Below, one piece after another: positions 48 to 9,198 of a stretch of 9,198 nt of DNA. A program made the position numbers and the translations under genes. Source of the stretch: Acidobacteriota bacterium (lineage in GTDB: Bacteria; Acidobacteriota; Terriglobia; Acidiferrales; UBA7541); NCBI GenBank assembly GCA_003224135.1, contig QHYO01000092.1, positions 1 to 9,198 on the forward strand. The letters are read 5' to 3'. The first letter of the stretch is position 1, and each line of letters opens with the position of its first letter. The notes below the pieces were generated by a model. The model had not been told where the DNA came from and searched no databases. It saw nothing but the letters and a program-made list of their open reading frames with translations.

Positions 48-578
48 TCAAATGGTCGGCCCGGGGAAAACTTCCAGGAGCCTGGGCAGATCCAAAACCA
101 GCGCCAAGCGATCGTCGTGGCGCAGCATGCCGATGCAATGCGGGACGTTTTCCGGCGCTTGATGCAGCATGTCGTCCGAAGTTACGGAGTACGTGCCAAC
201 GACTTCGTCAGAGGCGATCCCGATGCGGACGTCTTCGTGGCTGCCTTCCACGCGCATCGACGCAACGACTACATGCTTGGGCAAAAGTCCCGGACGGCGG
301 CCTTCGGTCATGGCAATGTCGACCAACGGAACGATCGCGCCCCGTAAGTTGAAAATGCCCATGAGGTAGCTCGGGCCGAGAGGAAGCTTGGTGACAATCG
401 GCCACTCAAGCACTTCCTCGACGTCGAGCACCGGCAGACAAAAGCGTTCGCGACCGCTGCGGAAGACGCAGTATTGCGATTCCGCCGGACGCTCTTCGAG
501 CGGGCCGATGGCCTCCAGCATTTCTGCCGTATCGGCATCGGGAGGAAGCGGCGCGAGTTGGAATTCGTCATTCATCAT
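48..578 (-). CDS. cheW: CheW-like coupling protein
   Basis: This is a 176-aa single CheW domain. CheW bridges chemoreceptors to the kinase CheA at the inner face of the membrane; in pilus (Chp-type) systems the equivalent is PilI. After a short acidic N-terminal tail, the run YCVFRSGRERFCLPVLDVEEVLEW and the central GIFNLRGAIVPLVDI block are the hallmark CheW strands (the usual form is IRGxVIPVVDL). They are followed by VRIGIASDEVVGTYSV. The length matches the family. I start at the ATG at 578 (a second ATG follows at 575). The frame is open to 671, but that extension overlaps the upstream regulator and is low-complexity Arg-rich sequence. It lies 5 nt after the stop of the PilH-like gene, so the two are cotranscribed. 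No strong Shine-Dalgarno is seen, which suggests coupling to the upstream gene. Confidence 0.9.
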   Translation of the reverse strand: MMNDEFQLAPLPPDADTAEMLEAIGPLEERPAESQYCVFRSGRERFCLPVLDVEEVLEWPIVTKLPLGPSYLMGIFNLRGAIVPLVDIAMTEGRRPGLLPKHVVVASMRVEGSHEDVRIGIASDEVVGTYSVTSDDMLHQAPENVPHCIGMLRHDDRLALVLDLPRLLEVFPGPTI

Positions 579-583
579 GAATT

Positions 584-946
584 TCAAGCAAAACGGCGGA
601 CGGCCCGCAAAAGTTCCTCGCGCGTAAATGGTTTCGTGACATAGGCGTCGGCGCCCTGCTGTTCGCCCCAATATTTGTCACTGGCGGTGTCTTTCGAAGT
701 GACCAGAATCACGGGAATGGATTGGAACTCCGCGCTGCCTTTCAGTTCGCGGCACACCTGAAAACCGTTGCGCTCGGGCATGACTACGTCGAGCAGAATT
801 ACGCTCGGATGAAGAGTGGCGATGGTCTCTTCGACTCGGCGCGGATCATTCAGCCCAAAAGACTGGTAGCCCTCGTGTTCGAGAAGGCTTTGCATGAGCT
901 TTACCTGCGCTGGTGAGTCGTCGACGATGAGGACCTTTTTGAGCAC
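584..946 (-). CDS. Single-domain response regulator, PilH/CheY-like
   Basis: This is a 120-aa receiver domain with nothing attached. All phosphorylation residues are present: acidic pair D9-D10, phosphoacceptor D53 (LLDVVMPERNG), T83 and K105 in the TKPF motif. The stretch around 90-104 (DKYWGEQQGADAYVTKP) resembles PilH of twitching systems more than flagellar CheY. It would take phosphate from a CheA-type kinase and act as an output or phosphate sink. The start is GTG at 946, preceded by GGAGA about 8 nt upstream. CheW follows after 5 nt. A sigma-54-type promoter (982-997) sits about 25 nt upstream of the likely untranslated leader. Assignment to pilus rather than flagellar control is inferred from the motif and from the lack of flagellar genes here. 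Confidence 0.9.
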   Translation of the reverse strand: MLKKVLIVDDSPAQVKLMQSLLEHEGYQSFGLNDPRRVEETIATLHPSVILLDVVMPERNGFQVCRELKGSAEFQSIPVILVTSKDTASDKYWGEQQGADAYVTKPFTREELLRAVRRFA

Positions 947-981: not shown

Positions 982-997
982 TGCACGTCGGCGGCCA
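982..997 (-). promoter_or_regulatory. Predicted sigma-54 (-24/-12) promoter for the PilH/CheW operon
   Basis: On the minus strand the bases read TGGCCGCCGACGTGCA. This has the invariant GG and GC of sigma-54 promoters with exact 10-nt spacing, and the flanks TGGC and TGCA fit the TGGCAC-N5-TTGCA consensus. The start of transcription would fall near 971, giving a leader of about 25 nt that holds the GGAGA ribosome site. A GTCTCAG-type inverted repeat lies about 150 nt upstream. Such boxes can arise by chance; the combination with the repeat is what makes it credible. Confidence 0.55.
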
Positions 998-1077: not shown

Positions 1078-1758
1078 TTAGTTTCTTGTGGAGAGGCTTG
1101 CTCGAGCCTCGTCCGTCTCAGCCTGAGATGCATTCTCAGCCTCGCGCATCTCGCTGGCGAGTGATGAGAATCGCTGCATAATTTCGTTAATCCGCAGGGT
1201 CATATTGTGCATGGTCTTAATCTGGTGCAACGACTGGGCACTGAGCTGGCCGGGTTCCAGGAGCAACAATTCGGCATTTCCGAGGATGGTGGTCAACGCA
1301 TTGTTCACGCTGTGCTTCATGTCCGACATGTATCGGCCGAGCACGGCCTCGCGTTCGCTTTGCAATGCGCGGGACATTGCTTGCTTCGCCTGGCGGCCCG
1401 CGTGAACACGGCGGAGCGATTCCTCCGCTACCAGGACGAGCGTTTGCGTCCAGTCTTCTCGCAAAGGCACATGAAGCAACCGCGGGTAGCGCGAATGCAA
1501 TTGCTGAATCTCGCGAGAATCGGCAGCGCAAAGGATCACAGCGACGCCCGGATGAACGGTGCTTAAGATTGCGGAGAGCTTGTTCTCGCTAACAGGGCCA
1601 AGCACCACAAGGTCGAATGTTTCGCCACCCTGAGCTTTCCAAAGGCTGCTGTTCAGAACGGTGATAGAGGGCGCGTGGCGTTCAGCGGGCCAGCAGGAAC
1701 TGAGCAGGCGGGCGAACTCAGGATCGTCCGTAAGGATCAAAACCTTAGCGTTCTTCAA
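1078..1758 (-). CDS. Pseudo-receiver plus DHp (HisKA-like) protein lacking a kinase domain
   Basis: This is a 226-aa protein in two parts. Residues 1-115 fold like a receiver (KVLILTDDPEFARLL, acidic pair D11-D12). The phosphoacceptor position is lost (VVLGPV, Gly54 in place of Asp), and so is the conserved Lys before Pro (HVPL, 96-99). Residues 140-200 form a dimerisation/phosphotransfer helix pair with an H-box at H149 (KHSVNNALTTILGNAELLL). There is no ATP-binding domain: the protein ends in a polar Glu/Ala-rich tail. The acidic residue that normally follows the H-box His is Ser150, while the Asn at +4 (N153) remains. It therefore probably cannot autophosphorylate and may act as a phosphotransfer, phosphatase or docking partner (inference). 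The start is TTG at 1758 with GGGAG upstream. It lies 45 nt after the 479-aa gene and is probably the last gene of that operon. Confidence 0.8.
   Translation of the reverse strand: MKNAKVLILTDDPEFARLLSSCWPAERHAPSITVLNSSLWKAQGGETFDLVVLGPVSENKLSAILSTVHPGVAVILCAADSREIQQLHSRYPRLLHVPLREDWTQTLVLVAEESLRRVHAGRQAKQAMSRALQSEREAVLGRYMSDMKHSVNNALTTILGNAELLLLEPGQLSAQSLHQIKTMHNMTLRINEIMQRFSSLASEMREAENASQAETDEARASLSTRN
1115..1129. promoter_or_regulatory. Inverted repeat GTCTCAG-C-CTGAGAT, predicted enhancer site
   Basis: This is a 15-bp inverted repeat matching GTCTCAG-N-CTGAGAC at 13 of 14 arm positions. It lies within the codons of the polar C-terminal tail of the pseudo-receiver/DHp gene. Its centre is about 150 nt upstream of the predicted start from the sigma-54 box at 982-997, a usual distance for NtrC-type enhancers. 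A half copy (TTCTCAG) follows at 1133-1139. Confidence 0.55.
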
Positions 1759-1803
1759 GTGTCCCGGCTCCCGGAAATCTTCGGCTGTGAGCGAAAAGCG
1801 CGC

Positions 1804-3243
1804 TTATAGCTTTTCTGCTTCGTCAATCGCCGAGTTCAAACGTTTGGCGCTGATGCCCATATTGACCGCTGCTTCGGTATCCTTGGCCTGCTTTGCGATG
1901 TCCACTTGCTCAAGGAGACGTGTAACTTCCAGTCGAGCGACAGCAAGCGCGCGATCAAGGTTGGTGGCGTTGCCCGTTTCGCGGGTGGATTCCGTCGCCG
2001 CGGCGACCAGGGCGCGCGCGACAACAGCGCGGCGAAGATCTTCGGCAGAGGGCCCATCTTCGCTGACAAAAGCACTGACTTCCCAGGAAGATAGGAGGAC
2101 GCGAGCTGGCCCCTGGCGAATCGTGGTCATCGAGCGTCCGCGTGACGGCGGCGCCGCGATCAACTGCTCCCAGATTTGCTCCATGCAGGTTTCAAAATCG
2201 AGATTGGCAGGAACCTCGGTCCTGACTGAGACCTTCGGAGATTCCGTTTGCGGGATTCGGGCGAAAGGAGCGGCCTTTGTTGCCAACGGGCCGTGCAGAG
2301 CTTGATTCGCGGTTTGTTTCGAGGCGATTTTTTCGAGGCAGCGTTCGACATCGGCACGCAAGCCCAAAAGTTTTGCAAACGCCTGGCTGACGGTTCTTTC
2401 CGTGTATTCCTTTTGGAATGGCTGCTTCCAGTCTTCGGCAACTTGTTTGACGCGAGCGATCGGCTCATTTGCCGAGAGACCGGCATGCTCGCAATCGAGA
2501 AAGCGGATGCCGCCTGCTTCGAGTTGCGCCAAACCGGCTCGAATGGCGATCAGGTCGGCATGCATGAGTTCGATCAGCGTCCTGCGCAGCAAGAAATTGA
2601 AGCGGATGAACGCCAGCAACGCGGACGGATCGTAGAACATTCCACCGGCAGATTCCTTCACGCGCCGGCCCTGTTCGATGAAGTTTGTATTGAGGATTTC
2701 GCGGAGGCTGCGAAAGGTCTTCAGCGTGTCGATCACTTTTTCAAGCGGCTCGCACCAGGAAAGAGGGGTGCTGTCAACTTCACCAAGCACCGGAAGCATG
2801 ACTTGCGCCGCATCGGCGAGGTCGATTTGCTTGTGATAGATCTTGGCGGGTGCGCAAAGCGCGAAATACTGCACCAGAAGGAAGTCAATTTTGTCGCGAT
2901 CAATGCTGCTTTTTATGGATTTTCGCAGATGACGAAGAATGAGGGCACGTAAACCGCTCTCGCTTGCGTTCAGCGTGGTCATCTGCAAAAGATGGCGAAG
3001 TTGGTGGACCATGACGCGCTGGTCCATCGAATTCGTCCATGTGAGAACGCTGTCCAAGAGTTCAGCGTCGGCCTTCGCGGGAAGATTGCGGCGATCCGGC
3101 CCAAACGGAATTTCGAATTCCAATTGTTTGGCGAGAGCCAGATAGATGGGAAAGAGCGAGCGAAGCTCCTCCCATTGTTCTTGCCGCCCGATCTCGCCTT
3201 TCACCAGGCCTGGAATCTTCAGAGTTGTCAGAGAATTATTCAC
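1804..3243 (-). CDS. Conserved-looking protein of unknown function, 479 aa
   Basis: I do not recognise a named family. The protein appears soluble and mostly alpha-helical, with no signal peptide and no membrane segment. Three parts can be seen. An N-terminal helical body of about 290 residues is rich in Leu, Arg and Lys and carries several long amphipathic helices. A Pro/Thr/Lys-rich linker lies around 315-345. A C-terminal part is Ala/Glu-rich with probable coiled coil over the last 70 residues (ARLEVTRLLEQVDIAKQAKD). I start at GTG 3243, which overlaps the PilZ-like gene stop as GTGA (translational coupling). A TTG at 3258 in frame is possible and would add five residues. Its place between a PilZ-like gene and a DHp protein, under a predicted sigma-54 promoter, suggests a signalling, scaffold or motility-related role, but this is context only. 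Confidence 0.8.
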   Translation of the reverse strand: MNNSLTTLKIPGLVKGEIGRQEQWEELRSLFPIYLALAKQLEFEIPFGPDRRNLPAKADAELLDSVLTWTNSMDQRVMVHQLRHLLQMTTLNASESGLRALILRHLRKSIKSSIDRDKIDFLLVQYFALCAPAKIYHKQIDLADAAQVMLPVLGEVDSTPLSWCEPLEKVIDTLKTFRSLREILNTNFIEQGRRVKESAGGMFYDPSALLAFIRFNFLLRRTLIELMHADLIAIRAGLAQLEAGGIRFLDCEHAGLSANEPIARVKQVAEDWKQPFQKEYTERTVSQAFAKLLGLRADVERCLEKIASKQTANQALHGPLATKAAPFARIPQTESPKVSVRTEVPANLDFETCMEQIWEQLIAAPPSRGRSMTTIRQGPARVLLSSWEVSAFVSEDGPSAEDLRRAVVARALVAAATESTRETGNATNLDRALAVARLEVTRLLEQVDIAKQAKDTEAAVNMGISAKRLNSAIDEAEKL

Positions 3244-3584
3244 GGCCTTTTCACCCAAGAACAGTTTCCGTCGGCAAATTCCACAGCGACGGCCTTGCGC
3301 CCTTCGTGATACTGAACCGCGATTACTGTTGCTATGGTCTCGCCGTTTCCTTCGACGCGCTTAAGCCGGACACGGTCGCCAAACTCCAGCGGCAGCGACG
3401 AACTAAAAATGGCCCTTTCTCGGCTGGCAAACTCCACGAGCACAGATTCCCGCACTTGCCCTGAGGTCACGACGACGCGAACCTGAACGGGTTCCGCCGC
3501 CGGGAAAAAACGCACCAACTGCTCCGTGCAGCCGGAACTCGGCTGGCCGGTGTGCGCGAGTGTTGTCGTTCTTGGTGTATCCAC
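3240..3584 (-). CDS. PilZ-like domain protein
   Basis: This is a 114-aa protein, mainly beta strands from residue 25 onward: RFFPAAEPVQVRVVV, then SVLVEFAS, then PLEFGDRVRLKR, ATVIAVQYHEGRKAVAVEF. This is the pattern of the short PilZ-like barrels common in Acidobacteriota. PilZ domains usually bind cyclic-di-GMP through an RxxxR motif and a (D/N)xSxxG loop; neither is evident here, so the family call is moderate and ligand binding is doubtful. The frame is open to a TTG at 3731, but the predicted sigma-54 promoter at 3679-3694 would start RNA near 3668, inside that extension. I therefore chose GTG at 3584, just before the VDTPRTTT segment. No classic Shine-Dalgarno is seen. Its stop overlaps the next gene (GTGA). 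Confidence 0.65.
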   Translation of the reverse strand: MDTPRTTTLAHTGQPSSGCTEQLVRFFPAAEPVQVRVVVTSGQVRESVLVEFASRERAIFSSSLPLEFGDRVRLKRVEGNGETIATVIAVQYHEGRKAVAVEFADGNCSWVKRP

Positions 3585-3678
3585 TAAAGCCGCCCACTTC
3601 CGCCACCGAATGCAGCGCCCAACCACGGGTTCGGACACACCCGACGTCGCGCTGCACACACAGAGCAGAGAGGAGTAA

Positions 3679-3694
3679 TGCAAGAGAGCCACCA
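3679..3694 (-). promoter_or_regulatory. Predicted sigma-54 promoter for the PilZ operon
   Basis: The minus strand reads TGGTGGCTCTCTTGCA: TGG at -24, TTGCA at -12 and the exact 10-nt GG-to-GC spacing. Transcription would begin near 3668, leaving a leader of about 84 nt before the GTG at 3584. A GTCTCAG-type inverted repeat (3777-3791) and two half copies lie 110-190 nt upstream, as expected for an enhancer-dependent promoter. Confidence 0.55.
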
Positions 3695-3776
3695 AAGGAA
3701 GGCGAAAGTAGAAGAATGTGAAGTTTGTCAAAACAAAAGGCTTAGAAATTTCCGACGGTAGTTTTGTGGGTCAAAC

Positions 3777-3791
3777 GTCTCAGGCTGACAC
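3777..3791. promoter_or_regulatory. Inverted repeat GTCTCAG-G-CTGACAC, predicted enhancer site
   Basis: This site matches GTCTCAG-N-CTGAGAC at 13 of 14 arm positions. It lies in the gap between the activator gene and the PilZ-like gene, centred about 115 nt upstream of the predicted PilZ operon transcription start. Confidence 0.55.
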
Positions 3792-3797
3792 GTTTGC

Positions 3798-3854
3798 GTC
3801 TCAGTTCGCTCGACGATTTGCGTCAGAGAGCAGTTGGAGGAGCCTGACTGAGAC
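3798..3854. promoter_or_regulatory. Two half sites of the same repeat
   Basis: There is a perfect left arm, GTCTCAG, at 3798-3804 and a perfect right arm, CTGAGAC, at 3848-3854. The partner arms are poor. They extend the cluster that begins at 3777. Multiple sites of mixed strength are usual for cooperative binding by NtrC-type activators. The 3848 copy ends 3 bases before the activator gene's stop codon. Confidence 0.4.
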
Positions 3855-3857
3855 GAC

Positions 3858-4979
3858 TTATGATTGAGTGACGGTTTGCGGATTTTCAGCGCTAGAACGC
3901 ACGGAAATGTTATAGCGCTTGAGTTTGCGGTAAAGAGTGGCGCAGCTGATGCCAAGCATGCGGCCGGCGAGGGCTTTGTCTCCGTTGGCCTGCTCAAAAA
4001 CTTTTAGAATCGTCATGCGCTCCATTTCGGCCAGCGCAGTTGTGGACAAAGAAGAGCCATCCGGAAAGGACGTTTGCGTGGAGCCGCCTCCTTCGGCGCG
4101 AATCGCCGGCGGTAGATCGTTTACGTCAATCACCTGGCGATCGCCGAGTGTGACGGCTCGCGCGATACAATTTTCAAGTTCGCGGACATTGCCCGGCCAT
4201 TCATACTGCAGCAGGCTTTTCATCGCAGCCGGAGTGACATGCAGATTTGTACCGGGCGCATAACGGTTCAGAAAATGGTGCACCAGGACGGGGATGTCCG
4301 AGCGACGCTCACGCAAAGCGGGTAAATGCACGGTGACGACGTTCAGGCGGAAGTAGAGGTCCTTGCGAAACGTGCCTTCGCGATAGGCGGTTTCGAGGTC
4401 GCGGTTGGTCGCGGCGATCACGCGTACATCCACACTGCGGCTCTCATTGCTGCCCACGGGCCGGACTTCCCGTTCCTGGAGCACGCGCAGGAGTTTTGCC
4501 TGCATTTCCAACGGGAGTTCGCCGATTTCATCGAGAAAAATGGTGCCGCCGTTCGCGGCCTGGAAGAGTCCGGCTTTCGATTTCATCGCTCCGGTGAAGG
4601 CGCCTTTTTCGTAGCCGAAAAGTTCGCTTTCCATCAAAGTCGGAACCAGCGAACCGCAGTCGACGGCGACGAAGGGAGTTTGCGCCATGGCTCCCCGAAA
4701 ATGAATGGCGCGCGCGACGAGTTCTTTGCCGGTTCCGCTTTCGCCGGAAACCAGGACAGGAGTGCGAGTATCCTTCAGACGTGAAATCATGCGAAGGACA
4801 TCCTGGATGTTCGCGGAAGCGCCGATGATTCCGTCGAGGTTGTCTTCCGTGTTGACGCGCTCGCGCAAAAATGCGTTTTCCGTAACGAGGCGAACTTTTT
4901 CCGCCATTCGCTGCAACAGGAGCCGCATTTTTTCAACCCGAAAGGGCTTTTCGATGTAGTCGTAGGCTCCGAGCGTCAT
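3858..4979 (-). CDS. Sigma-54 activator, AAA+ and Fis-type DNA-binding part (C-terminal fragment of a broken NtrC-type gene)
   Basis: This 373-aa open frame is the larger part of an NtrC-family response regulator. It opens with the end of the receiver (LGAYDYIEKPFRVEK, including the conserved Lys). Then come a linker helix, Walker A GESGTGKE (79-86), the sigma-54-contacting GAFTGA loop (126-131), Walker B with GGTIFLDEIGE (144-154), the WPGNVRELEN block (261-270) and a Fis-type helix-turn-helix (about 335-356, KALAGRMLGISCATLYRKLKRY). All ATPase motifs look intact. It is separated from its receiver (4992-5267) only by an in-frame TAG; the reading frame is otherwise continuous, and the intact gene would encode 469 residues. 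ATG 4979 is 12 nt beyond the TAG, so reinitiation could yield a nearly receiver-free activator. It is the obvious candidate to bind the GTCTCAG-N-CTGAGAC sites nearby (inference). Confidence 0.85.
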   Translation of the reverse strand: MTLGAYDYIEKPFRVEKMRLLLQRMAEKVRLVTENAFLRERVNTEDNLDGIIGASANIQDVLRMISRLKDTRTPVLVSGESGTGKELVARAIHFRGAMAQTPFVAVDCGSLVPTLMESELFGYEKGAFTGAMKSKAGLFQAANGGTIFLDEIGELPLEMQAKLLRVLQEREVRPVGSNESRSVDVRVIAATNRDLETAYREGTFRKDLYFRLNVVTVHLPALRERRSDIPVLVHHFLNRYAPGTNLHVTPAAMKSLLQYEWPGNVRELENCIARAVTLGDRQVIDVNDLPPAIRAEGGGSTQTSFPDGSSLSTTALAEMERMTILKVFEQANGDKALAGRMLGISCATLYRKLKRYNISVRSSAENPQTVTQS

Positions 4980-4991
4980 GGCATCGACGGC

Positions 4992-4994
4992 CTA
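4992..4994 (-). other. In-frame amber stop inside the NtrC-type regulator
   Basis: Codon 92 counted from the ATG at 5267 is TAG, between MTGHGSIN and AVDAMTLGAYDYIEKPF. In homologous receivers this stretch is continuous (TGHGS-I-x-x-AVxAMxxGAYDYIEKPF). A single base change from CAG, GAG or AAG would explain it. The reading frame on both sides is the same. Confidence 0.85.
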
Positions 4995-5267
4995 GTTAAT
5001 GGAGCCATGGCCCGTCATGATCGCAACCTCGGTATGCGGAAACAGAGCCTTTGCCTGGCGCAAAAGTTCAACGCCGGACTGTGTGGGGAGCTTGAGGTCC
5101 GTAAGGATCAGGTCGGGAGCCTCCTGCTCGATACGGGCGACCGCAGTTTCGACGCTTTCGGCTTCGCTGCAGGCATAGCCGAGCGAATTTCCGATCGTCA
5201 TGCACAACTTGCGAATGCTTTGCTCATCGTCCACGACCAACAGCCTGACTTTTATCGAGTCGCTCAT
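4992..5267 (-). CDS. NtrC-type response regulator, receiver domain (N-terminal fragment)
   Basis: These 91 residues cover the first four-fifths of a receiver domain: acidic pair D13-D14 (LLVVDDEQSIRKL), phosphoacceptor D57 (LILTDLKLPTQSG) and T85 in MTGHGS. The switch Lys and last helix lie beyond the TAG at 4992-4994, in the same frame (IEKPF). On its own the fragment lacks the Lys needed for normal receiver switching and is probably unstable. It starts at ATG 5267, overlapping the stop of the preceding response regulator as ATGA, so translation is coupled. It should be read with the 3858-4979 segment as one gene whose product would be phosphorylated by the kinase upstream. Confidence 0.85.
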   Translation of the reverse strand: MSDSIKVRLLVVDDEQSIRKLCMTIGNSLGYACSEAESVETAVARIEQEAPDLILTDLKLPTQSGVELLRQAKALFPHTEVAIMTGHGSIN

Positions 5268-5659
5268 GGTTTTCCGAAAGTATTTTCCACAACAGAAATA
5301 AGTTTCTCAACGCGAAAGGGTTTTTCAATGCACGGAATTCCACTGTTCGCTAGCAACGCCTGGGTCTTGCTGTTTGCCGTGTCGCCAGTCATCAGGATCA
5401 TGCGATGCTGCAATTCCGGGCGATGATTGCGGATCCATTCATGGACCTCCGCTCCGTTGATAGCGCCGGGCATGCGAATGTCGGAGATGACTCCACCGAA
5501 ACTGCCGTCGACGAGACGTTCCAGGCCTTCGGCGCCCGACGATGCAGGAACAACGGTGTAGCCATGGCGTTCCAACGCGGCCCGTACGAAAGCGGTCACA
5601 GACGGTTCATCCTCGATCAAGAGAATCGAATTTAGCGTAGTTGTCGATTCAGTGCTCAT
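5264..5659 (-). CDS. Single-domain response regulator
   Basis: This is a 131-aa receiver domain with the acidic pair E16-D17 (ILLIEDEPSV), phosphoacceptor D60 (VISDIRMPG), T91 (LMTGD) and K113 (IEKPF); nothing follows the domain. The start is ATG 5659, which overlaps the histidine kinase stop as ATGA. The frame is open to 5755, but that extension lies wholly inside the kinase gene. Its stop overlaps the next gene (ATGA at 5264-5267). The set kinase, free receiver, NtrC-type regulator suggests either a phosphate sink or an intermediate that competes with the activator for the kinase (inference). Its closing IEKPFRVEK segment is nearly the same as that of the neighbouring activator, pointing to a shared kinase-facing surface. 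It is the only intact gene of this operon. Confidence 0.9.
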   Translation of the reverse strand: MSTESTTTLNSILLIEDEPSVTAFVRAALERHGYTVVPASSGAEGLERLVDGSFGGVISDIRMPGAINGAEVHEWIRNHRPELQHRMILMTGDTANSKTQALLANSGIPCIEKPFRVEKLISVVENTFGKP

Positions 5660-5910
5660 CGCCCCGCCTGTTTCGAGTTCGCGGCGGCAACTTCGGCCGC
5701 GGCGGGAAGTCGAATTGAGAAAGTGCTTCCGAATCCGCTGGCGTTGTTCCAGCACTGAATTTCACCGCCATGTGCGCGAACAATTCCATAGCAAATACTT
5801 AGGCCGAGACCAGTACCTTTGCCAGTCTGCTTCGTTGTATAAAACGGATCGAAGATGCGTTCGACGTCGGTGATGCCAGTACCATTGTCGGCCAAGCTGA
5901 TCTCAATGGA
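5656..5910 (-). pseudogene. Histidine kinase, end of ATP-binding domain (frameshifted part)
   Basis: This is the last third of the HATPase_c domain, read one base out of frame from the rest of the kinase. Reading from 5910 gives SIEISLADNGTGITDVERIFDPFYTTK, then GKGTGLGLSICYGIVRAHGGEI and a final Ala-rich tail. These are the G1 (DNGTGI), F (FDPFYTT) and G2 (GTGLGLS) boxes that must follow the N-box located just upstream in the other frame. No plausible own start exists beyond a TTG at 5895, so it is not a separate gene. The stop overlaps the following response regulator start (ATGA), which shows the original kinase gene ended here. Confidence 0.85.
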
Positions 5911-7963
5911 TTTTTCCGCGGCGGCCAGACTCCTCGATCGCGTCGTAGGCGTTGTTCAAAATATTCAGGAAGACCTGTTGCAGTTGCTGAGCGTCGCCCA
6001 TCACCGTCGGAAGACTTTCGTCGTATTCCTCGACGACTTCGACGCCGTGACTTTGCAGGTCGTAGCTGCGGAGTTTTGTGGTCTGCCTTAAGATGGCGCC
6101 GACGTTCACGAGTTCGCGCTTCACCGGACGCTGCCGGGCAAAGCTAAGCAGATCCTGCACCAGATCTTTGGTTCGCTGCGTCTCGTGCAAGATGATCTGG
6201 AGGTCTTCGCGCGCATTTCCGGTAACATCAGGATTTTCGAGAAGCAAATCCGTAAAACCCAGAATCGCGGCGAGAGGATTGTTGACCTCGTGCGCGACGC
6301 CGGACACGAGCCGCCCTAGAGTTGCCATGCGTTCCGCATGCGCCAGCTTCGCCTGCATCAATGCGGCGTCCGTGATGTCGGTCATCACAACTACAACGCT
6401 GTTCACGGTGTTCTGTTCGTCGCGCATGGGACTCAAGCTGATGGAAAAGTGGCCCAGCGTTCTGTCACTTCGACGTGCGCGTAACTCCAGATTTTCCACC
6501 TGGTGCCCGTGGGCGGTAGTTTCAAGTGCTGCCTCAAAATCCTTGCGTTGCCCAGCGTCCACCAAATCCACCAGGCGCCGGCCGATCATCTCTTCCTGCT
6601 TGTACCCTGTGTCGTAGCAGCGCCGGTTCGCGTAACTAATCAGGCCGGCGGTATCAAGAACCATGATCATGCTTTGCGTGGCGTTGAGAATCTTCTGGTT
6701 AAAGTCACGTTCGCGCTGTAGTTGTGCCTGAAACATCTTTTGCTCGGTTACATCGAGCATTAAGCCGCGAAATTGCTTGGTTTTTCCCTGGGAATCGCGC
6801 ACGGCGGTTATGTTCTGAAGCGTGTGAAGAATGGTGCCGTCTTTGCGGCGCAGCGACTCCTCGTGGTTCCGCAATACGCCAGTTTTGCGAATCGCGGCCA
6901 GCAAGTGGCCACGCGCGCTTGGCTCCGGATAGAGATAAGCGCCTACATCGTCACGCAACAACTCCTCGCGCGAGGCATACCCAAGCATTCGCACCATTGC
7001 GTCGTTCACATCCAGAAATCTTCCGTCTGGAGTGGCAAAGAAAAGCCCTTCCTGAATGCTGTCGTAAAGTTCACGGTAGCGACGCTCCGCTTCGCGACGA
7101 TCCGTGATGTCCTTCAAGACGTGAATTGTGCGCTCGTCGTCTTCAGTTGCGCCGCTGGCCCGCGAAGTGGAAACGAGGTAGATCTTCTCCGCAGAGGAAA
7201 TGATGTGCTCTTCCTTGCTCAATCCGGTGTACAGACAAAAAGGACAGGGAAGCGCGCCGTCTCCTTCGGCAAGCGTCCGCAAGCTGCTGACCGACTCTCC
7301 CACCAACGCAACAGGCGGAAGCCCGAGATGAGTCGCAAGTGAGCGGTTGGTACGTACGATTTTCCAGGCGCGGTCATGCACTACGATGAAGTCACTGATC
7401 GCATCAATGTCCTGTACCCATTGACGTTTCGATCGTTCGAGCTGCGAAAACCGCCGAAAGTTTTCAAGTGAGAGCGCGGCGTGACTGGCGAGCGCATGAA
7501 GCAACTTCTTTTCTTCTGTAACGATTTCCGGGCGCGCGCCAAAGATGCAGATCGCACCGAGAGGCTCGCCGTCGCTAGCATGGACAGGCACGACGAGCAA
7601 TTCGCTCGCACACGAAGTGCGAGACCTTTGGCGTGATGTCGCGTAAATGTCCTTACCCTGGCTGGCTTCCTTTGATCGGGCCAGTATTTCGTCTTCGTCG
7701 AGACCAAGAGCCTCTGTGTCTGCGGCGCCCTGCAGCTCCGCTTCTTGTCCGCGAATCACCACGACACCACACCAGACCGCGGACAGCATCCGTGCGACGC
7801 GCTCCGAGAATAGTTTCAGAAACTCCGGCAAGTTGCGCGAGTGCGCCGCGACAGTCGCCAGCTCCATGAGTTCGCTGGCGCGTTGCGCACTTGGGCGAAC
7901 GCGAACGTTGGTCCGTGCCGCTCGTGCCGATGCTCCCTCGGATTTGGATTTCTGGCGTCTCAT
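5903..7963 (-). CDS. GAF-PAS-PAS-PAS sensor histidine kinase, frameshifted near the C-terminus
   Basis: A cytosolic sensor kinase with no membrane segment. Counted from ATG 7963: a GAF domain about 30-170; a PAS domain about 185-290 containing CPFC (Cys240, Cys243); a second PAS about 295-410 ending in an ITAVRDSQGK/LDVTEQK PAC motif; a third PAS about 420-535; DHp with H-box HEVNNPLAAILGF (His558); then the start of the ATPase domain with the N-box NILNNAYDAI (667-676). The frame ends at residue 686 after GRRGKIH, just past the N-box. The G1, F and G2 boxes follow in the +1 frame (5656-5910). With one base less, the product would be 768 aa. As it stands it should lack kinase activity. The frame is open to a TTG at 8035, but ATG 7963 is preferred; no strong Shine-Dalgarno is present. 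Downstream, the two response regulators are coupled by ATGA overlaps, making them its likely partners. Confidence 0.85.
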   Translation of the reverse strand: MRRQKSKSEGASARAARTNVRVRPSAQRASELMELATVAAHSRNLPEFLKLFSERVARMLSAVWCGVVVIRGQEAELQGAADTEALGLDEDEILARSKEASQGKDIYATSRQRSRTSCASELLVVPVHASDGEPLGAICIFGARPEIVTEEKKLLHALASHAALSLENFRRFSQLERSKRQWVQDIDAISDFIVVHDRAWKIVRTNRSLATHLGLPPVALVGESVSSLRTLAEGDGALPCPFCLYTGLSKEEHIISSAEKIYLVSTSRASGATEDDERTIHVLKDITDRREAERRYRELYDSIQEGLFFATPDGRFLDVNDAMVRMLGYASREELLRDDVGAYLYPEPSARGHLLAAIRKTGVLRNHEESLRRKDGTILHTLQNITAVRDSQGKTKQFRGLMLDVTEQKMFQAQLQRERDFNQKILNATQSMIMVLDTAGLISYANRRCYDTGYKQEEMIGRRLVDLVDAGQRKDFEAALETTAHGHQVENLELRARRSDRTLGHFSISLSPMRDEQNTVNSVVVVMTDITDAALMQAKLAHAERMATLGRLVSGVAHEVNNPLAAILGFTDLLLENPDVTGNAREDLQIILHETQRTKDLVQDLLSFARQRPVKRELVNVGAILRQTTKLRSYDLQSHGVEVVEEYDESLPTVMGDAQQLQQVFLNILNNAYDAIEESGRRGKIH
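5911..5915 (-). other. Frameshift site: A5 homopolymer in the histidine kinase
   Basis: On the minus strand the run GGAAAAATCC shifts the frame. With four A's the reading would be GKSIEISLADNGTGI, a normal continuation between the N-box and G1 box. With five A's it runs into TGA at 5903-5905. This is not a canonical -1 slippery heptamer, and rescue needs a +1 (or -2) shift, so programmed frameshifting is unlikely. Confidence 0.85.
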
Positions 7964-7985
7964 GCCAATAGGGATGAAGCGATTT

Positions 7986-8043
7986 GTCTCAAGGTGAACG
8001 ATTCCACGCACATCCACGCTAATCGGCAATCTCAATCTGAGTC
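7986..8043. promoter_or_regulatory. Two weaker copies of the enhancer-type repeat
   Basis: One copy at 8029-8043 (ATCTCAATCTGAGTC) keeps 10 of the 12 outer arm bases of GTCTCA-N3-TGAGAC. Another at 7986-8000 (GTCTCAAGGTGAACG) keeps 9. They lie just upstream of the kinase ATG at 7963, so they could repress or autoregulate the kinase operon as well as assist activation of the TonB gene. Confidence 0.4.
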
Positions 8044-8106
8044 AATCACCGAACGGTTTGCTGTTGTTCATCACGGCACGCTCCCTGTACGAAGGGCCAG
8101 TAGGAC

Positions 8107-8121
8107 GTCTCAGCGTGAGAC
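8107..8121. promoter_or_regulatory. Inverted repeat GTCTCA-GCG-TGAGAC, predicted enhancer site
   Basis: This is a perfect 6-bp inverted repeat with a 3-base spacer, the best copy in the window. It is centred about 183 nt upstream of the predicted sigma-54 transcription start of the TonB-domain gene and about 150 nt upstream of the kinase ATG. Confidence 0.6.
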
Positions 8122-8270: not shown

Positions 8271-8286
8271 TGGCATCTGACGTGCC
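8271..8286 (+). promoter_or_regulatory. Predicted sigma-54 promoter for the TonB-domain/chemoreceptor unit
   Basis: The bases TGGCATCTGACGTGCC give TGGCA at -24 and TGC at -12 with exact 10-nt GG-to-GC spacing. The predicted start is near 8297, about 32 nt before the ATG at 8330. The element is nearly palindromic, so a minus-strand reading (GGCACG...TGCC) is also formally possible. The plus direction fits the short leader better. Confidence 0.6.
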
Positions 8287-8329: not shown

Positions 8330-8671
8330 ATGAGATTCCGTTGGACCCGGCTCGCGACGTCGATGGTAGCGATGGCGGTGATAGCGACTAGTACGCACGC
8401 GCAGACGGCGGCCATTGATGAAGGCAAGCGCAAGGTTAAGGTGAAAAATTCGCCGGCTTACCCAGAACTCGCGCGACGCATGAATGTTTCCGGCAAGGTG
8501 AAGATCGAAGTGATCGTCATGCCAGACGGGCGTGTCAGGAGCACGCGCGTGATCGGCGGCCATCCACTGCTCGTGCAGGCATGCCAGGACGCAGTCAAGG
8601 AATGGAAATTCTTTCCGGCCCCTGAAGAGACGACTCAGATCGTCGAGTTCGATTTTCGCGGCAACAATTGA
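8330..8671 (+). CDS. Secreted TonB C-terminal domain protein
   Basis: This is a 113-aa protein. A typical Sec signal peptide covers residues 1-24 (MRFRWTRLATSMVAMAVIATSTHA, then QTAAID), with Arg residues, a hydrophobic core and an Ala-x-Ala-like cut site. Residues 35-113 are a TonB C-terminal domain: PAYPELARRMNVSGKVKIEVIVMPDGRVRSTRVIGGHPLLVQACQDAVKEWKFFPAP is the classic signature. Energising TonB proteins have an N-terminal membrane anchor and a long Pro-rich linker. This one has neither and would be a free periplasmic domain, so coupling to ExbB/ExbD is doubtful. It may bind envelope components or outer-membrane partners (inference). It is divergent from the kinase operon and 73 nt ahead of the chemoreceptor gene, probably cotranscribed with it from the sigma-54 promoter at 8271. 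Confidence 0.85.
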   Translation: MRFRWTRLATSMVAMAVIATSTHAQTAAIDEGKRKVKVKNSPAYPELARRMNVSGKVKIEVIVMPDGRVRSTRVIGGHPLLVQACQDAVKEWKFFPAPEETTQIVEFDFRGNN

Positions 8672-8744: not shown

Positions 8745-9198
8745 ATGAGTATCGGTAAGAAATTGTATGCGGGGTTTGGCCTGGTGTTGGTCATTCTCGT
8801 TGGCTTGTTCCTTGTGAACAGCTTTGCGGCTCTGCGCGAGCGCACCGCCCGTTCGGAATCGGCTGCCTCGCTTAAGAGCGTGCAGACCATTGAAACCGTT
8901 CGGCTGCAGATCATGCTCAACCGTCTGAACCTCGATAATTTCCTGCTCAGCGGAGATCCGCGGGACGAAGAGAAGGTCAATAAGGGAATCACCGAATTGA
9001 CCGACGCACTGAAGCAGGGTGAAGCGCAGGCCGCCAACGACGTAGTTCGCACAACGCTCATCCAGGTAGAAAGCACGGAAGCCAATTGGTCGGACAATTT
9101 TGCCAAGCCCCTGCTTGCGAAACGGCACCAGGTGGACTCCGGCGATTCCACGGTTTCAGATTTGCAGATTTTTTACCTCCAGAAAGATCCCGCTTCAT
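8745..9198 (+). CDS. Methyl-accepting chemotaxis protein, N-terminal part (cut by window edge)
   Basis: The first 151 codons of a membrane receptor. The start is ATG 8745 with GGAGGG 8 nt upstream. A short basic start (MSIGKKLYAGFG) leads into one transmembrane helix (about 9-25, FGLVLVILVGLFLVNSF). A periplasmic helical sensor segment follows, containing NFLLSGDPRDEEKV, which resembles CHASE3/four-helix-bundle sensor domains (usual form YLLTGD). The second membrane helix, HAMP and the signalling hairpin lie beyond the edge. A histidine kinase with the same N-terminal layout cannot be excluded, but MSIGKKLYAGFG is typical of chemoreceptors. It would signal through a CheW such as the one at the left of the window. 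No separate sigma-54 box was found in the 73-nt gap after the TonB-domain gene. Confidence 0.75.
   Translation, partial: MSIGKKLYAGFGLVLVILVGLFLVNSFAALRERTARSESAASLKSVQTIETVRLQIMLNRLNLDNFLLSGDPRDEEKVNKGITELTDALKQGEAQAANDVVRTTLIQVESTEANWSDNFAKPLLAKRHQVDSGDSTVSDLQIFYLQKDPAS

Follow-up and report, generated by a model that had tools for sequence, protein, structure and literature searches.

A conserved inverted repeat as candidate enhancer of a predicted sigma-54 regulon of chemosensory and GGDEF genes in an uncultured Acidobacteria lineage

The 9198-base contig QHYO01000092.1 (C629; hereafter the window, which comprises the entire contig) belongs to the draft genome of an Acidobacteriota bacterium (GCA_003224135.1; 4.54 Mb in 804 contigs, 85% complete) and carries a cluster of chemosensory and regulatory genes in which the inverted repeat GTCTCA-N3-TGAGAC recurs near sigma-54-type promoter boxes. 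Our analysis points, with a probability of roughly 0.86, to this repeat being the enhancer of the NtrC-family activator encoded within the cluster and the predicted joint switch of four sigma-54 promoters, three in the window and one in front of a GGDEF gene on another contig. The repeat and the boxes keep a conserved spacing in related genomes, and the arrangement at the second site co-occurs with the activator gene. The coordinates of all features are collected in Table 1.

Within the window, the repeat starts at positions 1115, 3777 and 8107 (sites 1 to 3), each copy differing by one mismatch from GTCTCAGNCTGAGAC. A pattern scan thereby bore out the three repeats reported in a preliminary description of this DNA, along with the weak or half copies it had listed at 3798, 3848 (TGAGAC at 3849), 7986 and 8029. 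When up to three mismatches were allowed, four matches were seen where 0.39 would be expected, and all 200 shuffles gave fewer than four. A genome-wide scan, which the preliminary description had proposed as a check, found hardly any copies of the repeat outside the cluster: only four places in 4.54 Mb match the earlier pattern when one mismatch at most is allowed, three in the cluster and one on contig C220, all preceding predicted target genes. At up to two mismatches there were 12 places vs. 7 for the reversed pattern, so the weaker matches are largely background. GTCTCA-N3-TGAGAC is a better rendering of the motif than GTCTCAG-N-CTGAGAC; measured against the former, 31 of 33 genus loci have a perfect site 3, and a single mismatch is found at site 2 in 32/34 and at site 1 in 30/35.

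Each site is accompanied by a GG-N10-GC box. The preliminary description had set the distance between repeat and box at 115-185 nucleotides (nt), a range that holds for site 1 (118 nt) and site 3 (150 nt) and fails for site 2, whose box lies only 83 nt away. Scanning the window returned 107 loose boxes, with scores of 16.0, 15.5 and 16.0 for the three promoter boxes, which are among the eight boxes scoring 15.5 or more. Since loose boxes are this common, a box alone proves nothing, and the argument is carried by the conserved spacing in relatives. For this purpose, the genus was represented by 36 genomes with 37 cluster loci (the window, L063-L097 and L110), and sites were counted over 35 loci for site 1, 34 for site 2 and the 33 with both flanking genes for site 3, with presence of sites 1 and 2 scored at up to two mismatches. 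Site 1 was kept in 35/35 loci, all with a box at 117-119 nt, and site 2 in 33/34, with a box at 82-84 nt in each of the 33, including three loci (L077, L078 and L088) where a different box outscored that one under our crude scoring. Likewise, site 3 was kept in 32/33 loci, with a box at 148-152 nt in all 32; its spacing varies by a few bases, which smears the site in a box-anchored profile. A second copy lies 68-80 nt upstream of site 3 in 17 of the 33 loci (strict pattern). In other genera of the family the layout is near-identical, with distances of 115-119 nt for site 1, 82-84 nt for site 2 (63 in G260) and 149-153 nt for site 3 (139 in G260). Upstream of orthologous genes, where the preliminary description had suggested looking for conservation, the repeat is kept and its distance to the box is near-constant. 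Short conserved blocks (TAAGCC then TTTC, and TAACTCTAACGAAACA) were also observed between enhancer and box at site 2 of relatives and upstream of the GGDEF gene; one idea is that they form a site for a bending protein.

The 37 cluster loci hold 115 sites at up to one mismatch, compared with 1.5 on average and 31 at most for 60 permuted inverted repeats. The exact motif is present in all 36 genus genomes, with one to three copies each, while the reversed pattern occurs in none of them. The class was represented by 250 genomes, 57 of which contained the exact motif, namely 24/24 of the genus and 33/226 of the rest, the latter including a few activator-positive relatives such as G061, G151 and G209. 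Inverted repeats are common in genomes and the weaker matches are largely background, as one would expect if the copies were due to chance or were terminators or other non-regulatory repeats. The permuted repeats, the reversed pattern and the fixed spacing in relatives all speak against this explanation, which we regard as scarcely credible; a chance origin in particular was set aside on the shuffles, the genome scan, the reversed pattern and the permuted repeats.

Site 1 does not lie between genes and sits within the coding 3′ end of the HisKA-like gene. Its conservation could in principle come merely from the encoded protein, leaving only sites 2 and 3 and the GGDEF site as enhancers, and the left arm of site 1 does start with A or T, not G, in 34/35 loci. 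At conserved residues, however, codon identity was 0.89 under the motif (only 4 columns) vs. 0.61 over 133 columns of the remaining gene, the box follows at the near-constant distance given above in every genus locus, and site and box stay together at 115-119 nt in other genera, where the HisKA-like protein is 34-55% identical. Codon identity, over few columns, and the fixed distance to the box both point in the same direction, namely that site 1 reflects more than coding constraint. Coding constraint alone was set aside on the codon identity at those 4 motif columns, and we consider it very unlikely that site 1 is not an enhancer.

Regarding the protein that would bind the repeat, the preliminary description had placed an NtrC-family activator with a Fis-type helix-turn-helix (HTH) in the middle of the set, and the Sigma54_activat and HTH_8 matches agree with it. 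The GAFTGA loop was found in 33/35 activator hits, and a sigma-54 gene in 35/36 genus genomes, including the one studied here (contig C434). The family comparison covered 89 genomes, 61 of which carry an activator orthologue (E at most 1e-140). The exact site-2 layout was present in 56/89 genomes, the reversed pattern in 1/89 and a layout with the box one base longer in 3/89. This layout was found in 55 of the 61 activator-positive vs. 1 of the 28 activator-negative genomes (Fisher 5.8e-16, the genomes not being independent), and in the sole activator-negative genome that has it (G022) the activator gene is cut by the contig end. Outside the genus, the counts were 22/26 with the activator vs. 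0/27 without it. Among the activator-positive genomes lacking the exact layout, G284, G276, G260 and G254 have weaker copies with a box at 83, 84, 63 and 83 nt, respectively; the remaining two are G012, where the contig ends, and G019, which has no site 2. The motif lies downstream of the stop codon in 5/6 loci of orthologous activators. Paralogous activators (43-56% identity, 24 loci) were set aside as binders, with the motif near 0/24 of them at up to one mismatch and near 2 at two mismatches.

The fourth place in the genome, on contig C220, is a perfect match. It precedes by 260 nt a gene with a GGDEF domain (E 1.2e-37), a predicted diguanylate cyclase, which has the box CGGTCATTAGCGTGCA at -47. 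The preliminary description had proposed a local regulon of three promoters; three are indeed located in the cluster, but the fourth stands on another contig, and a purely local regulon was set aside for this reason. In the genus, the exact sites off the cluster mostly fall in one orthologous region upstream of this membrane GGDEF gene, for which 27 loci from 27 genomes align with the order TGAGAC, GTCTCA-N3-TGAGAC, a further GTCTCG half site and a box of type AGGGCACAAACTTGCA. In total, the GGDEF gene carries the motif in 35/36 genus genomes, eight beyond these 27 having it at one (six genomes) or two mismatches; no GGDEF homologue was found in G022 at E 1e-60. Of the 33 genomes in which the distance from site to box was determined, 32 have 187-199 nt; in G019 it is 211 nt. 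In two activator-negative genera (G129 and G133; L215/L272 and L216/L273), the GGDEF homologue is preceded by a box (at -50 and -47, respectively) and lacks the GTCTCA motif, as if served by another activator; its upstream DNA contains no clear replacement repeat. Additionally, in G018, G032 and G025 (L129, L131 and L135) an exact GTCTCA-N3-TGAGAC was observed upstream of one orthologous gene, with no clear GG-N10-GC box there; this gene is perhaps a further lineage-specific target.

Several observations weigh against the repeat being the enhancer of the cluster activator. In the window, an in-frame TAG at 4992-4994, inside the receiver domain, interrupts the activator frame, and the sensor kinase frame is broken in two at about 5896-5902. 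Decay or an assembly error may be the cause; copies of the activator in relatives are intact, and the orthologue hits show no internal stop. The sigma-54 regulon of the encoded activator, as first described, is nevertheless supported by conservation, spacing, co-occurrence and the presence of a sigma-54 gene, and neither outcome that the preliminary description had named as refuting it occurred; the interrupted activator and kinase frames are among the corrections to it. In the genus, site 3 is reduced to degenerate copies in G009, site 2 is missing from G019 at up to two mismatches, the GGDEF site has two mismatches in G007 and G010, and some genomes hold exact copies without a clear target (no conserved target shown in L133, L138, L140, L145, L148 and L099). 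Outside the genus, 33 class genomes have the exact motif and 14 the reversed pattern, so an isolated exact copy is often no more than background. The nearest GGDEF homologue (44-48%) is without the motif in three activator-positive genomes from other genera, and two more have no GGDEF homologue at the cut-off, so the GGDEF target may be specific to the genus. Finally, site 2 adjoins the activator gene, so physical linkage accounts for part of the co-occurrence, and the genomes compared are relatives of one another. Two points are not explained by linkage, namely the GGDEF site and the genus g31, in both genomes of which the activator is on a separate contig, the motif is absent from more than 7 kb next to it, and sites 1 and 2 persist elsewhere.

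These data also bear on the view that the repeat is bound by some other regulator, activator or repressor, encoded elsewhere, with the cluster activator using other sites. The isolated exact copies without a clear box would fit this view, as would five activator-negative genomes of the family in which the nearest GGDEF homologue has a box and no motif at up to two mismatches, so activators can change. Nevertheless, the site-2 layout tracks the cluster activator within the family and outside the genus alike, the repeat keeps a fixed distance to sigma-54-type boxes, and g31 retains the layout though its activator is unlinked. We therefore consider binding by another regulator quite unlikely.

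In NtrC-family proteins, a kinase acts on the activator, the activator on an enhancer and the enhancer on a sigma-54 promoter, an established chain from which the sequence of events proposed here is taken. The GAF/PAS kinase would phosphorylate the receiver of the activator, which would then oligomerise and bind the repeat via its Fis-type HTH, possibly aided by the weaker neighbouring sites. By looping, it would contact RNA polymerase-sigma-54 at a box 83, 118, 150 or about 195 nt away and open the promoter by ATP hydrolysis. Judging from gene order, the first predicted target is an operon of CheY, CheW, a methyl-accepting chemotaxis protein (MCP), CheR and CheA; the second comprises the PilZ-like, 484-aa (amino acid) and HisKA-like proteins, and the third TonB_C, MCP, CheW, CheR and CheA. 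The membrane GGDEF protein would be the fourth, in trans. The expected output is the coordinated build-up of two chemosensory systems together with cyclic di-GMP (c-di-GMP) signalling. A stronger version, in which the circuit is hard-wired and one activator drives two chemosensory arrays and a c-di-GMP synthase with enhancer-promoter distances held within a few bases, is tentative, and we give it slightly less than even odds. NtrC-type enhancers are thought to tolerate changes in distance; for the three cluster promoters, the distances are fixed across genera and the intervening DNA varies freely. The shorter spacings of G260 at site 2 (63 nt) and site 3 (139 nt) correspond to about two and one helical turns less, and shortening by whole turns would agree with a loop whose geometry fixes the helix face.

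Table 1. Sites, promoter boxes and genes in the window.
Feature	Position	Strand	Remarks
Enhancer site 1 (candidate)	1115..1129	-	1 mismatch; within 3′ end of HisKA-like gene
Enhancer site 2 (candidate)	3777..3791	-	1 mismatch; between activator gene and PilZ-like gene
Half site beside site 2	3798..3803	-	TGAGAC on minus strand; same half site kept in relatives
Enhancer site 3 (candidate)	8107..8121	+	perfect to GTCTCA-N3-TGAGAC; flanked by kinase and TonB_C genes
Second, weaker candidate copy, upstream of site 3	8029..8043	+	3 mismatches
Sigma-54-type box TGGCCGCCGACGTGCA, promoter 1	982..997	-	GG-N10-GC; faces CheY-like gene; 118 nt from site 1
Sigma-54-type box TGGTGGCTCTCTTGCA, promoter 2	3679..3694	-	GG-N10-GC; 83 nt from site 2
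Sigma-54-type box TGGCATCTGACGTGCC, promoter 3	8271..8286	+	GG-N10-GC; 150 nt from site 3
CheW	51..572	-	Pfam CheW; in relatives followed by MCP, CheR, CheA
CheY-like receiver protein, first gene downstream of promoter 1	587..946	-	Pfam Response_reg
HisKA-like protein	1081..1758	-	Pfam HisKA barely above cut-off
484-aa protein of no known family	1807..3258	-	kept in 36/36 genus genomes
Small protein, predicted PilZ-like fold	3243..3584	-	start codon set by comparison with relatives
NtrC-family activator, AAA+ part and Fis-type HTH	3861..4979	-	Sigma54_activat E 1.6e-70; HTH_8 E 3e-10, C-terminus
Receiver part of activator	4995..5267	-	Pfam; cut off from AAA+ part by in-frame TAG; in one frame with AAA+ part in relative L067
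Stand-alone receiver protein	5267..5674	-	Pfam
GAF/PAS/HisKA sensor kinase	5903..8035	-	ATPase part read in a different frame (5656-5895); single frame including HATPase_c in L067
TonB_C-domain protein, first gene downstream of promoter 3	8330..8668	+	Pfam TonB_C
MCP gene start, runs off contig	8745..9198	+	in relatives followed by CheW, CheR, CheA

The small protein of the second predicted operon has no Pfam match, and its AlphaFold2 model (predicted local distance difference test score, pLDDT, 83) found the PilZ-bearing proteins BcsA and VCA0042 as best Foldseek matches (E about 1e-3, probability 1.0, template modelling score 0.58); it is predicted from this model to fold as a PilZ-like barrel. 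The 484-aa protein, mostly helical by prediction, had no usable structural match and no Pfam or NCBIfam family; it is 57-71% identical in the 35 other genus genomes searched, and 15 loci at 65-69% identity were found in named genome records. In the relative L067, the chemosensory genes continue on both arms: past CheW, the first arm has MCP, CheR and CheA, and the second arm has MCP, CheW, CheR and CheA, both CheA genes being cut by the ends of the stretch. One record with a full acidobacterial cluster (L193, G006) is titled Betaproteobacteria, a title that looks wrong.

The analysis thus proposes a specific regulon for an uncultured lineage of Acidobacteria, naming its operator sequence, its regulator and its targets, and predicts a single programme that unites two chemosensory systems with a PilZ-like protein and a GGDEF protein. 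The four promoters with different, near-fixed enhancer distances are also a natural series for probing how DNA looping constrains sigma-54 activation. Among the papers listed by topical searches of the open-licence literature, none described the motif or the regulon. The activator stays below the cut-off of every named NCBIfam regulator shown, the best being AtoC with 369.7 of 714 bits (441.5 of 714 bits for the full-length activator of L067). Over the full length, with receiver, AAA+ and Fis-type HTH, it resembles NtrC1 of Aquifex (4l4u; phmmer E 1.8e-102) and other NtrC-family activators, and the predicted regulon is a new one of a known mechanistic kind. In the Desulfovibrio vulgaris sigma-54 regulome, conserved repeats upstream of conserved sigma-54 promoters were assigned to neighbouring activators, with loops over about 100 bp or more (PMC4641369). 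Repeats before sigma-54 promoters are common to both cases, whereas organism and targets are different, and GTCTCA does not appear in the main text of that paper (PMC4641369). The nearest published analogue we found, as far as the accessible portions of the report go, is CrdS-CrdA with Che3 of Myxococcus xanthus, where a sigma-54 activator homologous to NtrC, with its own kinase, is likewise tied to a chemosensory system controlling gene expression; no enhancer motif is seen in those portions (PMC3510030). Che3 acts there on the phosphorylation of the activator (PMC3510030); for the activator described here, the predicted role is control over the chemosensory genes as such.

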